Below are positions 3,335 through 16,811 of a stretch of 21,462 nt of DNA, in pieces. Location: positions 1 through 21,462 of IMG/VR virus record IMGVR_UViG_3300020595_000225; one strand, written 5' to 3'. Position numbers and translations under genes: made by a program. This DNA comes from a virus. Under the pieces are notes generated by a model. That model did no database searches. It was not told the DNA's origin and saw nothing but the letters and a program-made list of their open reading frames with translations. Numbering within the stretch: position 1 is the stretch's first letter; every line of letters starts with the position of its first letter.

Positions 3335-3949
3335 ATGAAATATAATATGATTCCCGACCTGAACAAGAAAGTTATTCTAACTGATTGTGATGGTGTACTA
3401 CTTGACTGGAAGTATGGCTTCTATCAGTATATGGCTCAACGAGGTCATACTGTCCAGAATGATAATGTTTATTCAATGGCTGAAGTCTTTGGTATCACTA
3501 AAGAAGAAGCCGATCGTCATGTAAACATTTTTAATAATAGCATGTACATTGCACACCTAACACCGTTTCGTGATGCAGTGGCTTCTATTAAATACCTGTA
3601 TGAAAACCATGGTTACGTCTTGCATGTTATTACGGCTTTGTCTACCGAGCCAGAAGCATACAAGCTGCGGCTTCAGAACTTACATGAAATCTTTGGCGAA
3701 AACGTAATTGATCGATTGGTATGTACTGATCCTGAATACCCTGATAAGACTACGTACTTGGCAGAGTATAAAGATACTAATTGTATTTGGGTCGAGGACT
3801 CACCCAAGAATGCAATCTGTGGTGCCTTAGCTGGTTTGAATACATATTCAATTAATCATTCACACAATGCTGGTTTTGTATACGACGAAAACCTTGCAAT
3901 TGAATGTGTGGATAACTGGCAAGGAATTATCGAGCATGAAGGTTTGTAA
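3335..3949 (+). CDS. HAD-superfamily phosphatase, 5'(3')-deoxyribonucleotidase-like
   Basis: 204 aa. HAD motif I is LTDCDGVLLDW, with nucleophile D17 and acid D19. Motif II is the Thr in HVITALS, and motif IV is the acidic pair in WVEDSPKNA (about residues 146-154). A helical cap lies between motifs I and II (residues 25-85). HAD enzymes of this size in phages are usually nucleotide or sugar phosphatases; a deoxynucleotidase role fits the neighbouring nucleotide metabolism (nrdB, guaC) but is inference. It starts directly after the previous stop and overlaps the next gene by 14 bases. Confidence 0.75.
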   Translation: MKYNMIPDLNKKVILTDCDGVLLDWKYGFYQYMAQRGHTVQNDNVYSMAEVFGITKEEADRHVNIFNNSMYIAHLTPFRDAVASIKYLYENHGYVLHVITALSTEPEAYKLRLQNLHEIFGENVIDRLVCTDPEYPDKTTYLAEYKDTNCIWVEDSPKNAICGALAGLNTYSINHSHNAGFVYDENLAIECVDNWQGIIEHEGL

Positions 3950-8397: not shown

Positions 8398-8631
8398 ATG
8401 ATTAAATGGATTGAGTATCTGAATCATCGTACAGACTATGATGAGTTGATTAAACAAATGATAGGCATACCGCCTATTCATGAGCAAGGCACATCAGAAG
8501 CTATGCAATGGTTTCTTAAACGAGGTGCACGCGGTAATCGCTTTAGACGTGATTATCAAAAACTCGTCGAAGCTTGTATTATGGGCTTAGTTATAATTGA
8601 AGAAATAAGGGAATTAAACGATGCGGATTGA
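8398..8631 (+). CDS. Small hypothetical protein
   Basis: 77 aa, not recognised. It begins [20 protein letters not shown] and has a basic middle stretch ([15 protein letters not shown]) followed by a hydrophobic helix ([15 protein letters not shown]). It is mostly helical, with no signal peptide; the hydrophobic stretch is too short and too flanked by charge to be a sure membrane segment. The start lies 12 bases after a stable hairpin (8314-8386) and has no clear ribosome site, so its translation may depend on that structure or on coupling. It overlaps guaC by 11 bases. Confidence 0.6.
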
Positions 8632-9688
8632 AGACGATATTAAGCTTGATTATTCGGATGTGCTTATTCGACCTAAACGGTCTGAGGCGCGTTCTCGTAA
8701 AGAAGTAAAACTCGAACGAACATTTCGGTTTAAGCATTCGAGCATTGAGTTAGATTGTCTTCCTATCATCGGCGCTAACATGGATGGTGTTGGTACCGTT
8801 AAGATGGCTGAGAAGCTGCAACAAGTTTATAAAGCGCTTACCTTCCTTACTAAGTCTGAACATGATAAGAATGAACGTTACCCTTTGAACTTTGGTATTC
8901 CAATTGGGTTTAACGATGATATCACATCTACATTTAAAACTATTAATGACCGTCTTCTTATCAACCTTGACGTAGCTAATGGTTACACTAAGGTATTCTC
9001 TGATCACGTGCGCAATGTGCGACGTGCTTACCCCCATGCAATTATCTCGGCTGGTAATGTTGTTACCGCTGAACAAACTCAGGAGTTGATTCTAAATGGT
9101 GCCGACATTGTTAAAGTTGGTATTGGTCCTGGTAGCGTCTGTACTACTCGTGTTAAAACCGGCGTTGGATATCCACAGCTCTCGGCCGTTATCGAATGTG
9201 CTGATGCTGCTCACGGCCTTGGTGGTCACGTTATTGCTGACGGTGGTTGCGCTTCACCCGGGGATGTAGCTAAAGCTTTTGCTGCTGGTGCAGACTTTGT
9301 TATGTTGGGTGGTATGCTTGCCGGTCACGATGAAGGTGGCGGTGAACGTATTATTACACACGAACCTACCGGTGAATGGTTCTTCCGTAAAGAAAATGAA
9401 TCCTGGCACCCAGCTATTAAGCAAAAAGAATGGCGTATGTTCTATGGTATGTCTAGTCAGGTAGCTAATGATAAACATAATGGAGGCTTGCAGAAGTACC
9501 GTGCAGCAGAAGGAAAGATGGTTACTGTACCTTATCGGGGTACCGTTGTTAATACAATGGATGATATCCTTGGTGGTCTCCGTTCTACTTGTACTTACGT
9601 GGGTGCCACTAAGCTGAAAGACCTATCTAAGTGTACAACATTTGTACGTGTAAATAATCAGTATAATGCAGTATTTGGTAAAAGCTAA
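8621..9688 (+). CDS. guaC: GMP reductase
   Basis: 355 aa. The protein matches bacterial GuaC closely: [54 protein letters not shown] with catalytic Cys174 and Thr176, [16 protein letters not shown] and [10 protein letters not shown]. The tail [18 protein letters not shown] is also typical. The reaction is GMP plus NADPH to IMP plus ammonia, which steers guanine nucleotides towards adenine nucleotides. IMP dehydrogenase is less likely because no CBS domains are present and the catalytic block reads as GuaC. Compared with the E. coli enzyme as I recall it, there is an extra stretch of about 15-20 residues near 247-272 (containing [12 protein letters not shown]) and a shorter region near 90-110. 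It overlaps genes on both sides. Confidence 0.92.
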
Positions 9689-10458
9689 TGACTAAAATGA
9701 TTTGGCAGGTAGCCGTAGGACCTAAGTCTAAACTCTACGAACATTGCATTCAGTCTGTTGCTGACTATGCAAAACGGATTGGCGCTGAGCATATCGTTCA
9801 GCGTGATCCTATTCTGATGATCAAGCCAAACCCTTTCACTTCTAACCGGAGTGAAGGGGCTTCTCGTTTGGGTTACTTGCCTATCTATGAGAAAGAAAAT
9901 GCGTTTGATCATATGGGTAAGTTTGATCAGATTGCAATCATTGACTCTGACGTATATGTGCGTGAAAATGCACGTGATGTGTTTGAAACACTTTCGCCTG
10001 AGACTGGTCTTGCTGCGTCTATTGAAGGCGACATGCCTATCACAGCTCAGTATGCAAACAAGATCAAGAACTACTCGCGCATGCAGTATCAGACTTTGTT
10101 TGCTGAAAGCATGATGGATAAGAACGGTTACCGCTTTGCTAACATGGGTGTAATGGTCATGAACAGCAAAGTGCTTAAGCCTTTCCTCAAAGGTCAATCA
10201 GCTAAAGAGTTTATTAGCCGTCATGAGTTCCAGGACTTTGTAGATGGTAAGGGTGCATGGAAGTGGTCAACTGATCAAACTCTTTTGAACAACTGGGTAT
10301 ACAAGCATCAGATTCCTTTCCAGAATCTTGACTGGCGGTTTAACGGTTTGTTCGGCGCTAACACCAAGATTAATGAGTGTGACTTTGTTCACTTCTTCCT
10401 TAAAGATCATTTGCCTAACAAAGGTGAAGATGTAGCCAGCCTGATGAAGCAAATCTGA
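9688..10458 (+). CDS. Glycosyltransferase, GT-A fold (GT8-like)
   Basis: 256 aa. The DxD metal and sugar-nucleotide site is IAIIDSDVYV (D86, D88). FANMGVMVMNSK (about 148-160) and STDQTLLNNW (about 193-202) are the acceptor-side and D-Q motifs common in GT8-like enzymes. No membrane segment is present, so it acts in the cytoplasm on nucleotide-sugar donors. The substrate cannot be read from the sequence. Its ATG overlaps the guaC stop (TAATG), and it opens the run of eight sugar-modifying genes to 14939. GT8 is the closest family I can name from motifs; another GT-A family is possible. Confidence 0.8.
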   Translation: MTKMIWQVAVGPKSKLYEHCIQSVADYAKRIGAEHIVQRDPILMIKPNPFTSNRSEGASRLGYLPIYEKENAFDHMGKFDQIAIIDSDVYVRENARDVFETLSPETGLAASIEGDMPITAQYANKIKNYSRMQYQTLFAESMMDKNGYRFANMGVMVMNSKVLKPFLKGQSAKEFISRHEFQDFVDGKGAWKWSTDQTLLNNWVYKHQIPFQNLDWRFNGLFGANTKINECDFVHFFLKDHLPNKGEDVASLMKQI

Positions 10459-11126
10459 TGAAAGCATTCTTGATTTACATTGAAGGACACGAAGGTTCTG
10501 AGAAGCAAGCTAAGTCTGCTGCTGAGTCTGCTTCTCGTAATGGCTTTGACGTGGCGATGACACCTGGTGTAACGCCAGCAACCCTGCATCAATACGAAAA
10601 GTATCCTGAGGTTGTCAATGGTCGTGTCACCAACTTTAAGCGTGAGAACACTAAGACTTACTTCACTAAAATGTCATGCTTCTTCAATCACATTGAAACA
10701 TGGAAGAAGTGTGTTGAACTGAATGAACCAGTTGCATTCATCGAGCATGATTCGTATTGCGTGCGTGAGTGGAACAACCCACACTGGGATGAAGTTCTGA
10801 TCATGAACATGGAATCTGCTTTCAAACAATCAGTGTTTAACCATGTTCGTAACAAACCCGCGCCGTCTTTAGGTATTAATGTATATGACCAGTCACCATT
10901 AAACTACCGGTTTGACAACGACTTCAAAGACAGTCTGATGATTCCAGGTACTGGCGCATATGCTGTCACACCCAAAGGCGCAAAGCGTATGTTAAATGCC
11001 TTGCATAAGTACGGGTGGGAACAATCAGATTTCTTTATTAATACATTCAATGTTAAGATTGATTATATTATGCCAGAATTCTTTACATTCAAACATTCTA
11101 ATTTAAACACAAGTCATGGATTTTAG
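10458..11126 (+). CDS. Glycosyltransferase, GT25-like (paralogue 1)
   Basis: 222 aa. The family pattern is seen in SCFFNHIETWKKCVELNEPVAF followed by IEHDSY (E96, H97, D98) and later GTGAYAVTPKGAKRML (about 154-170). GT25 enzymes transfer galactose or similar sugars in lipopolysaccharide or protein glycosylation and usually carry E-D-D at the catalytic site; here the middle residue is His. Two further genes (12270, 12986) share this change. The start ATG is tight against the previous stop (TGATG), so the genes are coupled. No membrane segment is present. Confidence 0.75.
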   Translation: MKAFLIYIEGHEGSEKQAKSAAESASRNGFDVAMTPGVTPATLHQYEKYPEVVNGRVTNFKRENTKTYFTKMSCFFNHIETWKKCVELNEPVAFIEHDSYCVREWNNPHWDEVLIMNMESAFKQSVFNHVRNKPAPSLGINVYDQSPLNYRFDNDFKDSLMIPGTGAYAVTPKGAKRMLNALHKYGWEQSDFFINTFNVKIDYIMPEFFTFKHSNLNTSHGF

Positions 11127-11138
11127 GAGTTAAGTACA

Positions 11139-11720
11139 ATGATGAAAGGTATCAATAAGCCGGTACATGAAACGGTTAAACGTATACCAAAAAGCTCGGT
11201 AGGAGTTGAACTAGGTGTATGGAAAGGTGATAGCTCAAAGCTGTTTGCCAAGCGTGCTTCTGAACTTCATTTGGTTGATGCATGGTCTGTTGAACCATAT
11301 GACAACCTGGAAAACCGTGATGCGTATTATGAGCGCTATGCTGATATCACCGGCGGTACTACACCAGCAGACTTTATGAAATACTATGATAGAATTCATA
11401 AAGATGTTGTGAATCGTTTTGTAGATAGCGAACATGTCAAGATTCATAGAATGGATACTGATGCGTTCTTTGAAACCTTTGATCGCAACGTTGACTGGTT
11501 CTATGTAGATGCCGCCCATGACGAATTGGGCGTATACAAAGACATGGTTAATGCGTATAATCATCTAGTTAAGTTTGGCGGAGGTCTTATTTTCGGTGAT
11601 GACTATGGCAATAAACCAGGTGTGGTTGCTGGCGTAGATAAGTTTATGGCTGAGCACCCTGAGCTTAAGCTTAATAACTTTTATATGAACCAGTTTGAAA
11701 TCAAAGTAGATGTCAGCTAA
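11139..11720 (+). CDS. Class I SAM-dependent methyltransferase
   Basis: 193 aa. The SAM-binding motif I is VGVELGVWKGDSSKLF (residues 21-36), motif II is the acidic end of LHLVDAWS, and the motif IV region is WFYVDAAHDELG (120-131). GGGLIFGDDYG (147-157) resembles the metal-binding loop of cephalosporin-hydroxylase/MdmC-type O-methyltransferases (Methyltransf_24). Such enzymes methylate hydroxyls of small molecules or sugars. Its position between glycosyltransferase and sulfotransferase genes suggests methylation of a glycan. It has a good ribosome site (AGGAG, 11125-11129) and overlaps the sulfotransferase gene by 11 bases. Confidence 0.82.
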   Translation: MMKGINKPVHETVKRIPKSSVGVELGVWKGDSSKLFAKRASELHLVDAWSVEPYDNLENRDAYYERYADITGGTTPADFMKYYDRIHKDVVNRFVDSEHVKIHRMDTDAFFETFDRNVDWFYVDAAHDELGVYKDMVNAYNHLVKFGGGLIFGDDYGNKPGVVAGVDKFMAEHPELKLNNFYMNQFEIKVDVS

Positions 11721-12273
11721 GAATATTGATCATAATCGTAAGGTTATTTTTCTTCATCCTAACAAGTGTGGAGGCAAATCGGTCGAGTTCATTCTATTTA
11801 ATCGTGAGAATGTAGCAGGTAGTGCTGATCACCGTTTTCCTAGTGAGTTTATTCGTGACTTTGGTTCAGCATGTTGGAATGAGTATTTTAAGTTTGGCTT
11901 TGCTCGTAACCCATGGGATCGAGTGTTCAGCATCTATAACTACCGTATAAAAAACCTTAAGCAAATTGACTTTGGTTTCTCTGACTTTATTTTGCACAAA
12001 GCTTCACCATACAGTATCGACTATGACCAGCAGATTAAATGGTTTTACTGGTCTAATAAACCGATTGACTTTATTGGTAAAGTAGAAACGTATCAACAAG
12101 ATTGGGATAGTATTCGAGACAGATTAGATTGTGATATTGACTTACCACATCTTAATAAATCAGAGCGAACACACTATTCAAACTACTATAATGCCGAAAC
12201 TAAAGATGCAGTGTATAAAATTTTTAATGATGATATCAAAACTTTTGGCTATGAATTTGAGGATATAAAATGA
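11710..12273 (+). CDS. Sulfotransferase family protein (PAPS-dependent, putative)
   Basis: 187 aa. The 5'-phosphosulfate loop is IFLHPNKCGGKSVEF (13-27), corresponding to the usual F-x-H-x-P-K-x-x-G-x-S. The 3'-phosphate site is FARNPWDRVFSIYNYR (64-79). Further family marks are FIGKVETYQQDWDSI (121-135) and LPHLNKSER (145-153). This is the layout of Sulfotransfer_2 carbohydrate sulfotransferases, which move sulfate from PAPS to sugar hydroxyls. The P-loop reads PNKCGGKS rather than the more common P-K-T-A-G-T-S, but the Lys and Ser are present. No Golgi-type membrane anchor is found, as expected in bacteria. It overlaps its neighbours on both sides (11 and 4 bases). Confidence 0.8.
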   Translation: MSAKNIDHNRKVIFLHPNKCGGKSVEFILFNRENVAGSADHRFPSEFIRDFGSACWNEYFKFGFARNPWDRVFSIYNYRIKNLKQIDFGFSDFILHKASPYSIDYDQQIKWFYWSNKPIDFIGKVETYQQDWDSIRDRLDCDIDLPHLNKSERTHYSNYYNAETKDAVYKIFNDDIKTFGYEFEDIK

Positions 12274-12983
12274 ATGGTTACGTGATTACGATTTTGAAAG
12301 GTCCGCACAAAGAATACTCAATGAAGTGTGCTGACCGTTTGTTTGATGCTGCCACTGAACAAGGTGTGGATAAGACTATTGTTCTTAGACCGCATAAGGC
12401 AACTACACCTGATATGCTTGGCCCAGGTGACTTTGATAAGTGGCACTATCCTGATCAAGGCGTAACACGTAAGCATGAATCTGGTATGGAGTTCACTGGA
12501 TACAACGGTAAACTCGATACACGTATCGCTTGCTTTAAATCACACATGCTTCTTTGGCAGAAAACAGTTGCTCGCAATGAAGCTATTATGATACTCGAGC
12601 ATGATGCTGTATTTGTTCGTGACTTCAAGATGAATATCTTATTGAGCAAACTAGAGAATGGTGATGTTCTGATGCTCAATGATCCACGTGGCGCAACACG
12701 ACGCGGTAACCAGTATCATGAAAACATTGTCTCACATAACTTTGGCATTCATCCAGTCGATGGTGTGAACACACCTGATGAGAAATGTCCCGACGGTTTG
12801 GCTGGTAACTCTGCATATATAATTACACCAGCTGCTGCACAAAAAGCACTGCGATTAGTTGACCAGTATGGTTACATGCCAAACGATGCATTGCTGTGTA
12901 AGCAATGGTTCGGGAAGAACCTGAAATCAATCTATCCGTACATTACACGAGTACAACAAACCACTAGCACGACGAGTAACTAA
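12270..12983 (+). CDS. Glycosyltransferase, GT25-like (paralogue 2)
   Basis: 237 aa. GT25 signs are the opening MNGYVITIL, then RIACFKSHMLLWQKTVARNE with MILEHDAVF (E110, H111, D112), and NSAYIITPAAAQKALRL near residues 180-197. The central part (113-178) has a longer loop than paralogue 1, with LMLNDPRGATRRGN. As in the other two copies, the catalytic triplet reads E-H-D. It starts inside the sulfotransferase stop region (ATGA-type overlap) and is followed after two bases by paralogue 3. Substrate unknown. Confidence 0.78.
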   Translation: MNGYVITILKGPHKEYSMKCADRLFDAATEQGVDKTIVLRPHKATTPDMLGPGDFDKWHYPDQGVTRKHESGMEFTGYNGKLDTRIACFKSHMLLWQKTVARNEAIMILEHDAVFVRDFKMNILLSKLENGDVLMLNDPRGATRRGNQYHENIVSHNFGIHPVDGVNTPDEKCPDGLAGNSAYIITPAAAQKALRLVDQYGYMPNDALLCKQWFGKNLKSIYPYITRVQQTTSTTSN

Positions 12984-12985
12984 TA

Positions 12986-13636
12986 ATGCAAGCTTACGTA
13001 ATTACATTAATGAAAGTGCCTGAGTCAGTTAAGATGGCTGAGCGCTGTATTGAGACTGCCTCTAATCATGGCATTACTGTTTCTATGTTTGAAGCGGTAA
13101 CACCCGAGGAAGGTTTGTCACTAGCGCGTAAACACGATATTAACCTCAAAGCATTTGATGAGAAGTATTCACGCTACGATAACTGTGTTGCTGCATTCAT
13201 GTCTCACTTCTTACTGTGGCAAGAAGCAATCAATCAGAAGCAAGACGTTTTGATCTTTGAACATGATGCGGTTGTTACTGCACCTTTCCCATTCATTCCT
13301 GCTCATAACGGTTTGGTCACTCTTGGCATGCCTTCATATGGTACATACAACAATGCACCTCAAATGGGTCTGCAACGTATGTTCTCTAAGCGTTACCTGC
13401 CTGGTGCTCATGCTTATGTTGTTTCACCCGACGGTGCACGTACGATTACACATCAAGCAACCGTGAAAGCTGGTCCAACAGATGTATACCTGAACATGGA
13501 TACATTCCCTTGGATTCAAGAATACTACCCCTGGATCGCTGAGGCACGTGATACGTTCTCAACAATTCAAAACGATAATGGTATTCAAGCCAAGCACGGC
13601 TACAAGAAACATGGCGAGGCGTATAAGCTGATATGA
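12986..13636 (+). CDS. Glycosyltransferase, GT25-like (paralogue 3)
   Basis: 216 aa. It starts MQAYVITLMKVPESVKMAER. The central motif is CVAAFMSHFLLWQEAINQKQ followed by FEHDAV (E92, H93, D94), and the late motif is GAHAYVVSPDGARTI (about 140-154). It is closest by eye to paralogue 2, its immediate neighbour, which suggests tandem duplication. The C-terminal part includes DVYLNMDTFPWIQEYYPWI, an aromatic region that could bind the acceptor. It is cytoplasmic, with no signal. It overlaps the next glycosyltransferase gene by four bases (ATGA). Confidence 0.78.
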   Translation: MQAYVITLMKVPESVKMAERCIETASNHGITVSMFEAVTPEEGLSLARKHDINLKAFDEKYSRYDNCVAAFMSHFLLWQEAINQKQDVLIFEHDAVVTAPFPFIPAHNGLVTLGMPSYGTYNNAPQMGLQRMFSKRYLPGAHAYVVSPDGARTITHQATVKAGPTDVYLNMDTFPWIQEYYPWIAEARDTFSTIQNDNGIQAKHGYKKHGEAYKLI

Positions 13637-14319
13637 TTACTGTTGCATGTGTATGCTGGGGTGACAAGTTCCCAGAAGAATACGTATATAACCTGAAGAG
13701 CATGGTTGAACGGAATACAACGTTTGAGCATAACTTTGTTGTATTCTCTGATCGTGAATGGGACGGTATCGATACACGCATCCTGAAACCTGGTTATGAC
13801 GGTTGGTGGAACAAGCTACAGATGTTTGATACATCGCATAAGCTTGGTACTGATCGTATTGTTTACCTAGACCTTGATACAGTTATTACTGGTAACCTAG
13901 ACTGGCTCATGAGCTACAGCGGTCGGTTTATGGGTATTGAAGATGTTGGTGCAGTCAATGCACATCAGCCATATCTCAAAGGTAAACTACAGTCGGCTAT
14001 AATGGCATGGGACTATTACCTTGGTCATTCTATCTGGACTGACTTTCTTGCCAATAAACCGATGAACCAGTTTCGAGGTGATGGTGAATACCTTGAAGCT
14101 GCAATCAATCCAATGAACCGCGATCTATTGCAGAACGTGTATCCTAACAAATTGAAGTCGTATAAGTACGACGTATATAATGAAGGTCTAAAGCGTAATA
14201 CATCAATCGTATGCTTCCATGGACGGCCTTCAATTATTCAAGCAATGAACGAGACTATTGAAACCCCGATGGGTACATACGAGCCCCAGAGCTGGATTGA
14301 GGGGTACTGGAGAGGATAA
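13633..14319 (+). CDS. Glycosyltransferase, GT-A fold with DxD
   Basis: 228 aa. The opening MITVACVCWGDKFPEEYVYN is followed by GYDGWWNKLQMF (54-65) and the metal site IVYLDLDTVITGNLDWL (76-92; D80, D82). The W-x-K-L-x-M-F element before the DxD is common in phage and bacterial GT8-like or GT32-like enzymes. The C-terminal half contains FRGDGEYLEAA and a late IVCFHGRP, whose His may complete metal binding. Sugar donor and acceptor cannot be told. It starts in an ATGA overlap with paralogue 3 and ends in a one-base overlap with the next gene. Confidence 0.78.
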   Translation: MITVACVCWGDKFPEEYVYNLKSMVERNTTFEHNFVVFSDREWDGIDTRILKPGYDGWWNKLQMFDTSHKLGTDRIVYLDLDTVITGNLDWLMSYSGRFMGIEDVGAVNAHQPYLKGKLQSAIMAWDYYLGHSIWTDFLANKPMNQFRGDGEYLEAAINPMNRDLLQNVYPNKLKSYKYDVYNEGLKRNTSIVCFHGRPSIIQAMNETIETPMGTYEPQSWIEGYWRG

Positions 14320-14939
14320 TGGCTGAGACTGTACACGTAATTGGTAATGGAGATTCTGCTCATACATATGAACCAGCAAAAGGTTTGAAGGTTGTTTGTA
14401 ACCTACCACCAATGGCTGTCAATAATGTATGGGCGTCTGTCATTGTCGACTTTAAGATGATGGCTGCATTGACTGAGGGATCGGTTGATATTCCTTACAC
14501 CTGGGTCTGTGGCTTCCGACCTAAGATGTGGATGGAAAAGAATCCATCGTTCCATATGAAGCAATCACATAAGATTCGTGAGTTCTATACCGAGCTGCCT
14601 AAATACGCTTTGCTGGGTGGCAAGGACAAAGGTATGGGTTATACAAACATGAACTGTGGGCACGTGGCAACTCATTACTCAGCCAATCGTATGGAAGCCA
14701 AGAACATTCATCTGTATGGCTTTGATTCTATCTTTGAGTTTACATGCAAGTCGTCAACTGACTTTGTATTGAACTCTGATCGTGGCGATGTGAATACCAA
14801 CCGACTGACCGGCAATTGGCGTAATGTATGGGACGGTATGTTCAAAGAGTTTCATGATCGCAAGTTCTTCTTGCATTACCACAAATCCGGTGATGCAAAG
14901 ATGGCACTACCAAAGAACGTCGAAATTGTTCGACACTAA
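14319..14939 (+). CDS. Rossmann-like protein, possibly GT42/DUF115-related
   Basis: 206 aa. The N-terminus has VHVIGNGDSAHTYEPAKG (5-22), resembling the G-N-G-P-S nucleotide loop of GT42 sialyltransferases and of DUF115/MptE-like proteins. A later strand-turn with NIHLYGFDSIFEF (129-141) resembles the motif after which those families bind donor or acceptor. The assignment is by pattern only. Its position as the last gene of the glycan cluster, coupled to the previous stop, supports a role in making or attaching the sugar. It is followed by a small possible membrane ORF and a strong terminator, so the cluster transcript should end near 15125. Confidence 0.5.
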   Translation: MAETVHVIGNGDSAHTYEPAKGLKVVCNLPPMAVNNVWASVIVDFKMMAALTEGSVDIPYTWVCGFRPKMWMEKNPSFHMKQSHKIREFYTELPKYALLGGKDKGMGYTNMNCGHVATHYSANRMEAKNIHLYGFDSIFEFTCKSSTDFVLNSDRGDVNTNRLTGNWRNVWDGMFKEFHDRKFFLHYHKSGDAKMALPKNVEIVRH

Positions 14940-14956: not shown

Positions 14957-15064
14957 ATCAAACGTCTAGGCCAATACATTTGGGTAATCACACACATGGT
15001 TGCATGTTTCTTTATCATTGCCCATAACGGCACAAAGCTTGGTTGGTTCAATCTGGCTATGTGA
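14957..15064 (+). CDS. Possible small membrane protein without a standard start codon
   Basis: A 35-residue open frame reads KRLGQYIWVITHMVACFFII and then HNGTKLGWFNLAM, a basic end plus one membrane helix. A strong AGGAG lies at 14941-14945, yet no ATG, GTG or TTG follows in frame until an internal ATG at 14996. ATC at 14957 is at roughly usable spacing. It may use a rare start, or have lost its start by mutation. The stop overlaps the first copy of the repeated spacer motif. Confidence 0.3.
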   Translation: MKRLGQYIWVITHMVACFFIIAHNGTKLGWFNLAM

Positions 15065-15077
15065 CAAAAATAACACA
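15061..15077 (+). repeat. Spacer direct repeat, copy A
   Basis: GTGACAAAAATAACACA, matching copy B at 15479-15495 in 16 of 17 positions. It is followed by a terminator, an early -10 element and a GAACGAAAGAG leader, the same order as after copy B. Confidence 0.7.
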
Positions 15078-15125
15078 ACCCCTAAAAAGATTCAACAAAA
15101 GTCTTTTTAGGGGTTTCTTTTTTTC
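15077..15125 (+). terminator. Strong rho-independent terminator of the glycan cluster
   Basis: A 14-bp perfect stem, AACCCCTAAAAAGA (15077-15090) with TCTTTTTAGGGGTT (15102-15115), has an 11-base loop and a T-rich tail to 15125. Confidence 0.92.
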
Positions 15126-15135
15126 TGAAAGTGCC

Positions 15136-15146
15136 TATATTATAAT
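15136..15146 (+). promoter_or_regulatory. Early promoter -10 region
   Basis: TATATTATAAT offers two overlapping -10 boxes, followed by GAACGAAAGAG (15158-15168) before the ATG at 15176. The -35 region is only GTTTCT at 17-base spacing, so promoter strength is uncertain. Confidence 0.5.
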
Positions 15147-15175
15147 TATAACAACGACGAACGAAAGAGAACATC

Positions 15176-15478
15176 ATGTTCGAACAAGCTGTAGCCAACC
15201 TCGAGATTACCCCTGAGCAGCACAAGATCATGCGCAAGCTCAACCGGAAGATCGACACCGTTCACCGCATCAAGTTCACTGGTGTGTTCTACCTCAAGCG
15301 TACCTATGGGGAAGATCATGAAGACTTTCTTACCGCTCGGGGTCGTAACCTGATCGACGGCATTGACGACCTGATCAACGAGCTTCAAGCCATGGATGAT
15401 GATAGTCTGGTTTGGTACTGGTACTGCAACAAGTACAACAACGGTACCACCTTCGATGCTGGTGACGTATCGGCATAA
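15176..15478 (+). CDS. Hypothetical protein in a repeat-flanked cassette
   Basis: 100 aa, not recognised. It is helical and charged, with ITPEQHKIMRKLNRKIDTVH, RTYGEDHEDFLTARGR and a late aromatic stretch LVWYWYCNKYNNG. No signal or membrane segment is found. The codons end in C or G noticeably more often than in neighbouring genes; the first two full lines are about 53% G+C by count, whereas typical lines nearby are nearer 40-45%. The gene has its own terminator-insulated promoter and leader and is bounded by the two copies of the 17-base spacer repeat. These signs suggest a recently acquired moron-type gene. Confidence 0.65.
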   Translation: MFEQAVANLEITPEQHKIMRKLNRKIDTVHRIKFTGVFYLKRTYGEDHEDFLTARGRNLIDGIDDLINELQAMDDDSLVWYWYCNKYNNGTTFDAGDVSA

Positions 15479-15495
15479 GTGACAAAAATATCACA
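15479..15495 (+). repeat. Spacer direct repeat, copy B
   Basis: GTGACAAAAATATCACA, immediately after the stop of the cassette gene, with one mismatch to copy A (15061-15077). A weak hairpin (AGCTC 15495-15499 with GGGCT 15516-15520) and an early promoter follow. Confidence 0.7.
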
Positions 15496-15521
15496 GCTCT
15501 GAATAAATGTGTTCGGGGCTA

Positions 15522-15550
15522 TTTACAAACTCTCTTTTCTACACTATATT
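15522..15550 (+). promoter_or_regulatory. Sigma70-like early promoter
   Basis: TTTACA (15522-15527), a 17-base spacer and TATATT (15545-15550). The stretch TACACTATATTATATA is identical to that of the promoter at 2137, and the leader again reads GAACGAAAGAG (15561-15571). Confidence 0.8.
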
Positions 15551-15578
15551 ATATACATACGAACGAAAGAGACTGATC

Positions 15579-15833
15579 ATGAAAATTTACATTCTTAGTT
15601 TCTGGGATTATGAAACCGCTGAGACGGAGACTATAGGGTACTATCAAACGAAAGAGTTAGCAAAGTTGGATGCGCTTGAGTTGTTTATCCGACTCAAGCG
15701 AAGCACCAAGGACGCATATGCCGAGCTGCAATATGAAAATTGGAGCTTTAAGAAATTTTGGGACAGCTATTACTTGCACCTTGATTCTGCCACCGTAGAA
15801 ATGGATAAGAAATGTCAATCCGTACTCAACTAA
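15579..15833 (+). CDS. Hypothetical early protein
   Basis: 84 aa from the ATG at 15579. It begins MKIYILSFWDYETAETETIG, suggesting a beta strand pair, then has a helix (KELAKLDALELFIRLKRS) and ends with ENWSFKKFWDSYYLHLDSATVEM. It has no known motif and no membrane segment. The upstream in-frame TTG at 15507 lies before the promoter, so the ATG behind the GAACGAAAGAGAC leader is chosen. Its last 22 bases overlap the next, membrane-protein gene in another frame. An early, host-directed role is likely only by position. Confidence 0.65.
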   Translation: MKIYILSFWDYETAETETIGYYQTKELAKLDALELFIRLKRSTKDAYAELQYENWSFKKFWDSYYLHLDSATVEMDKKCQSVLN

Positions 15834-15967: not shown

Positions 15968-16175
15968 TCAAAGATCGGGTAAGACCTATCGCGCTGCGTC
16001 CAACGACAACAGCGGCATGGGCACCATGTTATTCTTCAAATATGCAGCCGAGCTTCTTAATGAAGAAGGCTATGCTGATGAAGCATTTTACTTCGAACAA
16101 GTGGTTGACCACATGCGTGATGGCGGTGGTTTGCCTGTTGATAAACGTGCAGTAGAAAAAGTATTAGGCTTGTAG
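15960..16175 (+). CDS. Small hypothetical protein
   Basis: 71 aa from the ATG at 15960. It begins [19 protein letters not shown], then has two helices ([33 protein letters not shown]) and ends [14 protein letters not shown]. Not recognised; probably soluble. The last 12 bases overlap the 3' end of the antisense homing endonuclease gene, so that insertion lies immediately downstream or trimmed this gene's end. An in-frame ATG 15 bases upstream is an alternative start. Confidence 0.6.
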
Positions 16176-16811
16176 AAAATAATAATCATTGAAGCGTGGT
16201 TTATTGCTCACAATACGACGTTTGATTGCTGTAGGATGAACACCCAATGCTTTTGATGCATCGTGCATAGTATCATATGTGATACCATTGCACACACAAG
16301 CCCGCGCTGTTGGACTGTTTTTACCTGTATTGGCTTGAGCCATCTTACGTCTAGTTTTGTATGATGGATTCCAACCTTCTTGGACTTTAGACAGTTTGAG
16401 CTTTGTTTCGTCTGTGTGTTTAAAGCCTGTATTGCTTTTACGACGCTTGTCAATGGTTTCTTGTGATTGTTTTATACCACTAGCTTTCTTAGCAAGAAGG
16501 TCTTTTGTTTCATCATTATGTTTAAAACCTGAAACACCTTCACCACCATCAGTACGGTTCAATAAGATACCAGTACCAATATCTTTACGACCCCACCAAC
16601 GAATAAGACGACGCTCGAGGGCTAATGCACCTAACTCACTCAGTCCAGTTTCAAGAATAATGATTCTGGCTTTATCACGAGGGACAGACAAATGTTTATG
16701 ACATTCATAAGCGCGATTCTTTTGGCCCTTACCAATATAGTATGGCTCGCCTGCTCTGCCCGAACAGGTCGTGCTGTCTTTTGCTCTAATATAAGCGTAT
16801 ATATAATACAT
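16164..16811 (-). CDS. GIY-YIG homing endonuclease with NUMOD modules
   Basis: 215 aa on the minus strand. The catalytic domain shows YIYAYI (3-8), [13 protein letters not shown] (24-36) with a conserved Arg, a candidate metal-binding Glu in [11 protein letters not shown] (66 region) and [10 protein letters not shown] with Asn85. Residues 95-150 hold repeats of the [14 protein letters not shown] type (NUMOD3, DNA-binding), and 170-200 ([20 protein letters not shown]) forms a NUMOD1/helix-turn-helix end. This is the layout of free-standing phage homing endonucleases such as T4 Seg proteins and I-TevI relatives. All modules are present, so it is probably active. It lies opposite to all its neighbours and has its own late promoter at 16875-16882. 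Confidence 0.88.

Follow-up and report, generated by a model that had tools for sequence, protein, structure and literature searches.

Is the small gene enclosed by two copies of a short repeat in a phage genome a module that is gained, lost or swapped as one piece, or does the exchangeable unit lie elsewhere? This question was raised by an earlier note on a DNA stretch of 21,462 bp, hereafter the window, which is a complete IMG/VR record. At 15061-15077 and 15479-15495, the window carries the 17-base repeat GTGACAAAAATA(A/T)CACA and, as that note had described, each copy is followed on its 3' side by a real hairpin, a TATATT hexamer, a GAACGAAAGAG leader and a small gene, all at the positions claimed. 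The elements considered here are the following:

2094-2194, + strand: third cassette, with GTGATATTAATACCAC, a weak hairpin, TTTACA-17-TATATT and GAACGAACGAG, then a gene at 2195
15061-15175: cassette 1 as a unit
15061-15077, + strand: box 1, dyad GTGACAAAAATAACAC, consensus GTNACA-N4-TGTNAC; TGA at 15062-15064; -10 located 75 bp downstream
15077-15125, + strand: predicted intrinsic-terminator hairpin 1 with T-tract; hairpin identical in contig G005
15136-15141, + strand: -10 of promoter 1, TATATT, with a poor -35, TTTCTT
15159-15169, + strand: leader of gene 1, GAACGAAAGAG
15176-15478, + strand: gene 1, 100 aa, C-ending codons 0.75
15479-15578: cassette 2 as a unit
15479-15495, + strand: box 2, GTGACAAAAATATCACA, beginning immediately past the TAA of gene 1; -10 located 66 bp downstream
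15495-15520, + strand: hairpin 2, 11 pairs, without immediate T-tract
15522-15550, + strand: promoter 2, TTTACA-17-TATATT
15561-15571, + strand: leader of gene 2, GAACGAAAGAG
15579-15833, + strand: gene 2, 84 aa, weak DUF7336 match below cut-off

With up to three mismatches allowed, the window contains no matches other than the two 17-mers, and both fit the two-letter consensus exactly. Shuffled sequences averaged 0.32 matches, with 5 of 100 shuffles reaching two; the repeat is above chance, and more so when box, promoter and leader are combined. It extends to 38 nt at lower identity (74%); promoter and leader are likewise repeated between cassettes 1 and 2, over 23 nt (78%) and 14 nt (100%), respectively. 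Folding energies were -20.3 kcal/mol for hairpin 1 (15077-15115; z -5.4), which is directly followed by the T-tract, and -13.3 kcal/mol for hairpin 2 (z -4.4). A third, more diverged copy, the cassette at 2094-2194, had escaped the first reading. Comparison of the locus and cassette DNA with 50,697 phage records gave no match, and Rfam searches returned nothing above threshold (best RF01810, 26.4 bits vs a gathering threshold of 54).

A search of 2.9 million viral contigs for the promoter combined with the leader revealed five stretches; in two of them, the motif occurs twice, about 345 bp apart. The composite unit read in these stretches comprises a stop codon / box GTGACATAAACGTAACAC, a hairpin, TTTACA..TATATTATA, AACGACGAACGAAAGAGA and a small gene. 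What recurs is an intergenic cassette of about 110 bp, made of box, hairpin, promoter and leader, and not the gene between the repeats: the module idea is retained as a recurring unit with interchanged genes, and its proposed boundaries are abandoned. Interchange at this regulatory module is illustrated by cassette 1, whose counterpart lies between unrelated genes in the T4-type contig G005 (32 kb). G005 17971-17848 is 89% identical to window 15060-15186, with hairpin and loop the same letter for letter, while the flanks align at 38% (gene after) and 51% (120 nt before), values from forced global alignments that are about what unrelated DNA gives. The central 29-mer of this shared hairpin was found nowhere else in the viral collection. 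Tandem cassettes with different genes provide a further example in G004, a contig nearly identical to G005 (99.8%), where three copies are 88-92% identical over about 110 bp and their genes are unrelated (42-49%, again by forced global alignment); the hairpin arms vary by paired changes (CCCTTAAAA/TTTTAAGGG vs CCTACAAAA/TTTTGTAGG). Likewise, a 45-bp promoter-leader segment is common to G002 and G004 (95.6%), and the genes behind it differ. Overall, cassette copies number three in the 21-kb window fragment, three in G004 and five in G005. The cassettes of two further stretches (L050 and L054) had only weak partial matches in unrelated phages when compared with phage records. Promoter-leader matches without a cassette (L042, L044, L045 and L046) were judged to be chance.

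The gene adjoining cassette 2 gives another instance of interchange: gene 2 is a recently exchanged ORF. From its start codon on (15578-15803), it is 98.7% identical over 226 bp to contig G001 (stretch L017), and G002 (stretch L018) matches 15580-15806 at 93.8%, again beginning at the start codon; the remaining matches between the window and G001 range from 65 to 77%. In G001 and G002, the counterpart of gene 2 lies inside an operon-like gene row. The edge of the exchange is the ATG, 3' of repeat, hairpin, promoter and leader, and the cassette was left behind. Because gene 2 was exchanged without promoter and leader, gene movement is not confined to the segment bounded by the 17-mers: genes move at this locus, yet not between the two 17-mers only. 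Contigs G001, G002 and G003 further exchange genes at stop-start junctions of the type GATGAATAATG, which are devoid of promoters. Rows of small genes with this recurring junction were found in L018 (3227-4800), L024 (100-930, - strand) and L017 (3226-3460), and blocks up to 98% identical are reshuffled at such rows among contigs of one metagenome, representing a second, promoter-less mode of gene shuffling.

No case was seen in which gene 1 had been precisely inserted or removed between the 17-mers, as the earlier note had envisaged. Searches for relatives of gene 1 found none, and since no related phages with and without the gene were found, an insertion or removal in this particular place is unsupported. 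Gene 1 is, as reported, richer in C/G codon ends than its neighbours (GC3 0.66 vs 0.29-0.52 for the other window genes listed), with C/(C+T) at two-fold sites of 0.75 vs 0.42 (24:8 vs 599:833; p = 2e-4). However, this bias is unspecific as a sign of foreign origin: four cassette genes of G004 and G005, when pooled, are C-rich as well (58 C:28 T vs 929:1096; p = 1e-4), and a recent acquisition deduced from foreign codon usage was dropped on these grounds. As C-ending codons recur in other cassette genes, they suggest expression level rather than foreign origin, and would fit translational selection on strongly expressed early genes.

The 17-mer itself has a defined architecture, a 16-bp dyad GTNACA-N4-TGTNAC that occurs in about a dozen further phage contigs and is revealed by the box variants GTAACATATATGTTAC (G001) and GTAACAAAAATGTTAC (G009). 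Scanning the viral collection with GTGACATAAAYGTAACAC, allowing C at one position, identified 15 stretches, and those that were read have a promoter-like site 3' of the box. In nearly all copies, the stop codon of the upstream frame falls in or beside the box, most commonly as the TGA of GTGACA (box positions 2-4). Among cassette families, the distance from the box start to the -10 is 65/66, 75/76 or 85-88 bp, with none at 68-73 or 78-84. The promoter scorer behind these distances took no account of helical phase; for 3 of the 12 families (F9, F11 and F12), the -10 was positioned by eye, and weak single promoter matches at distances beyond 60-95 were excluded. For the 12 families, circular statistics gave R = 0.93 and a best period of 10.5 bp (simulated p = 2e-5), or p = 3e-4 with seven families after five were dropped, a strength to be read down accordingly as the families share some ancestry and perhaps only four or five length changes are independent. 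The cleanest case opposes L050 (65 bp) to L051 (75 bp), which have the same promoter and differ by a hairpin length shift of about one helical turn. As a control, a strong promoter was found 55-100 bp downstream of only 262 of 4000 random positions. Taken by the earlier note as a recombination repeat, the 17-mer probably serves primarily as a protein-binding dyad in helical phase with the promoter, and not merely as a repeat for recombination. A CRP-type site was rejected, the spacing from GTGA to TCAC being 8 and not 6, and so was an RNA hairpin formed by the box, with a fold of only -0.6 kcal/mol.

The phages concerned belong to the T4 type. G005 encodes homologues of UvsX, a UvsW-like DNA helicase, gp41, gp44, gp46, gp47 and thymidylate synthase, and stretches L050, L054 and L055 have T4-type genes similar to those of G005; these contigs are assigned by their replication/recombination set. 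The window fragment, which carries some T4-type genes only, is assigned by PhoH followed by an exonuclease, in the same order as in cyanophage S-PM2; it also encodes an RNR small subunit. The closest UvsX in a deposited phage genome, that of the Kyanoviridae phage C48C1, is 64.7% identical. Other genes of the window include an IMP dehydrogenase / GMP reductase gene (8621-9688), also present in G001 with 73% DNA identity, and a cluster at 9688-14939 with glycosyltransferase- and sulfotransferase-like genes of a surface modification type. Just 3' of the cassette genes, on the opposite strand (16164-16811, -), is a homing-endonuclease-like gene (NUMOD3/I-TevI-like), with a weak match to the I-TevI DNA-binding domain.

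T4-type phages such as RB49 reportedly carry promoter early stem-loops (PeSLs), said to have been described by Arbiol in 2010 and Comeau in 2014. Based on the RB49 sequence and on two publications, a cyanophage paper (PMC4503421) and a review of haloarchaeal viruses (PMC3950731), both of which describe PeSLs as mediating gene shuffling, the window cassettes share several features with these elements. A terminator or stem-loop is joined to a predicted early sigma70-type promoter and a leader, cassette 2 being without T-tract and cassette 1 having a poor -35; several copies lie between small non-core genes of a hyperplastic region in the same kind of phage; and the same cassette is found beside different genes in related phages. 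RB49 leaders resemble CGAAACGAAACAC, as do those of the window. In RB49, however, the stem often separates -35 from -10 or sits right at the promoter, whereas in window-type cassettes the hairpin is mostly upstream of the -35 or overlaps it, and the box starts 65-88 bp upstream of the -10. The dyad also sets the window cassettes apart from the RB49 architecture: GTNACA-N4-TGTNAC was in 0 of the 22 RB49 intergenic regions examined and, with up to one mismatch, nowhere in that genome. With the central four positions A/T and up to one mismatch, no match was detected in RB49, C48C1, ACP17 or YB07, and S-PM2 has one palindromic site with one mismatch, equal to the control level. Against these five reference phages, the helix-phased dyad box appears new. 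More distant parallels are found in the haloarchaeal virus HGTV-1, in which a conserved PeSL-like motif of promoter and inverted repeat precedes many genes and was proposed to serve gene shuffling (PMC3950731), but which is an unrelated virus with an archaeal TATA-box-like promoter. Integron gene cassettes also are exchangeable units of small genes bounded by hairpin-bearing repeats; here, however, the hairpins are terminator-like, every gene is served by a separate promoter, and the window proteins searched (PHROGs/Pfam) included no integrase.

Taken together, these comparisons make it likely that 15061-15175 and 15479-15578 are PeSL-type mobile regulatory cassettes of an uncultured T4-type phage. 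The classical early promoters of T4 are described as strong promoters for host sigma70. In the cassettes, the hairpin would terminate the transcript of the upstream gene, and TTTACA-17-TATATT, beside or overlapping its 3' side, would launch an early transcript of the host-sigma70 type, with the cassette supplying the leader up to the ATG. The dyad at the 5' edge, commonly overlapping or adjoining the stop codon of the upstream gene, would most likely serve as a binding site on the side of the helix that RNA polymerase also occupies. The cassettes being alike and numerous, recombination can pair copies out of register; homologous recombination of the UvsX/gp46/gp47 type, for which genes were seen in sister contigs, may thereby swap the small genes lying between copies, or insert or remove such genes. 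The distribution of the cassettes agrees with a role as crossover sites, but the edge of the gene 2 exchange is at the ATG. If this interpretation is correct, PeSL-type shuffling extends from cultured T4-type phages to uncultured ones recovered only from metagenomes, and provides directly comparable cassettes in which the same unit precedes different genes.

Whether the cassettes promote exchange at all can be disputed. The repeats could be parallel copies of a regulatory consensus under selection for expression, with genes shuffled by ordinary illegitimate recombination and selection filtering the products at gene boundaries. The position of the gene 2 edge outside the cassette and the promoter-less swaps at GATGAATAATG junctions both argue for this alternative, which we nevertheless regard as rather unlikely: letters of loop and flank with no evident function are kept between copies associated with unrelated genes, as in cassette 1 and G005 or among the G004 copies (88-92%), and their conservation beside unrelated genes suggests that the cassette was recently copied or recombined. 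Far less probable is co-conversion driven by a homing endonuclease. An endonuclease gene does lie 330 bp downstream of gene 2 and an apparent HNH-type ORF is near the G003 cassettes, but this process is expected to leave conversion tracts around a cut site, not edges of cassette or ORF size.

The nature of the dyad is likewise open to other readings, two of which seem to us about equally improbable. An operator of a host regulator (CRP/FNR- or GntR-like) that the phage has taken over, and through which early genes answer to the state of the host, would account for a dyad in helical phase upstream of sigma70-like promoters, and a looser form of the dyad could serve the host; yet 257 Gb of bacterial and archaeal genomes yielded just three exact copies of the box GTGACATAAATGTAACAC, as against about a dozen viral contigs when C was allowed at one position. 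The 17-mer could also be a mere context for termination or translation stop (stop codons, A-tract 5' of the hairpin) that requires no DNA-binding protein, as the stop codons in or beside nearly all copies may suggest, but the box is kept without any hairpin in L048 and L055, its variants in G001 and G009 form a dyad, and the box keeps helical phase with the promoter. We give somewhat less than even chances to the most far-reaching reading, a group of uncultured aquatic T4-type phages with an early-gene regulon, in which a protein, phage- or virion-borne or of the host, binds GTNACA-N4-TGTNAC in register with RNA polymerase. If so, the operator moves with promoter-terminator cassettes, and any gene caught between two of them would immediately come under the regulon. 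The conserved helix-phased box offers a way to test whether early promoters are under activator-type control.

Several other variable elements were observed in these contigs. Between two 99.4% identical phages, a stretch of about 414 bp with a cytidylyltransferase-like ORF (L038 of G003, 14263-14677) is locally replaced by a short terminator-like hairpin (L041 of G005, 3357-3390). An 18-bp tandem repeat (GGTAATGCTCGGGTCTCT-like) is present in a gene that encodes a repetitive and perhaps beta-helical protein and varies between contigs (L017, 3460-4029; L024, 198-560; L018, 4160-4600). Finally, the - strand of L026 (G007) carries another type of cassette in at least three copies (reverse-complement positions 8921, 9791 and 11668), in which a dyad GTAACAGAAATGTTAC is followed by a palindrome TTTAGACGT-N3-ACGTCTAAA and a TTGACA-like promoter.
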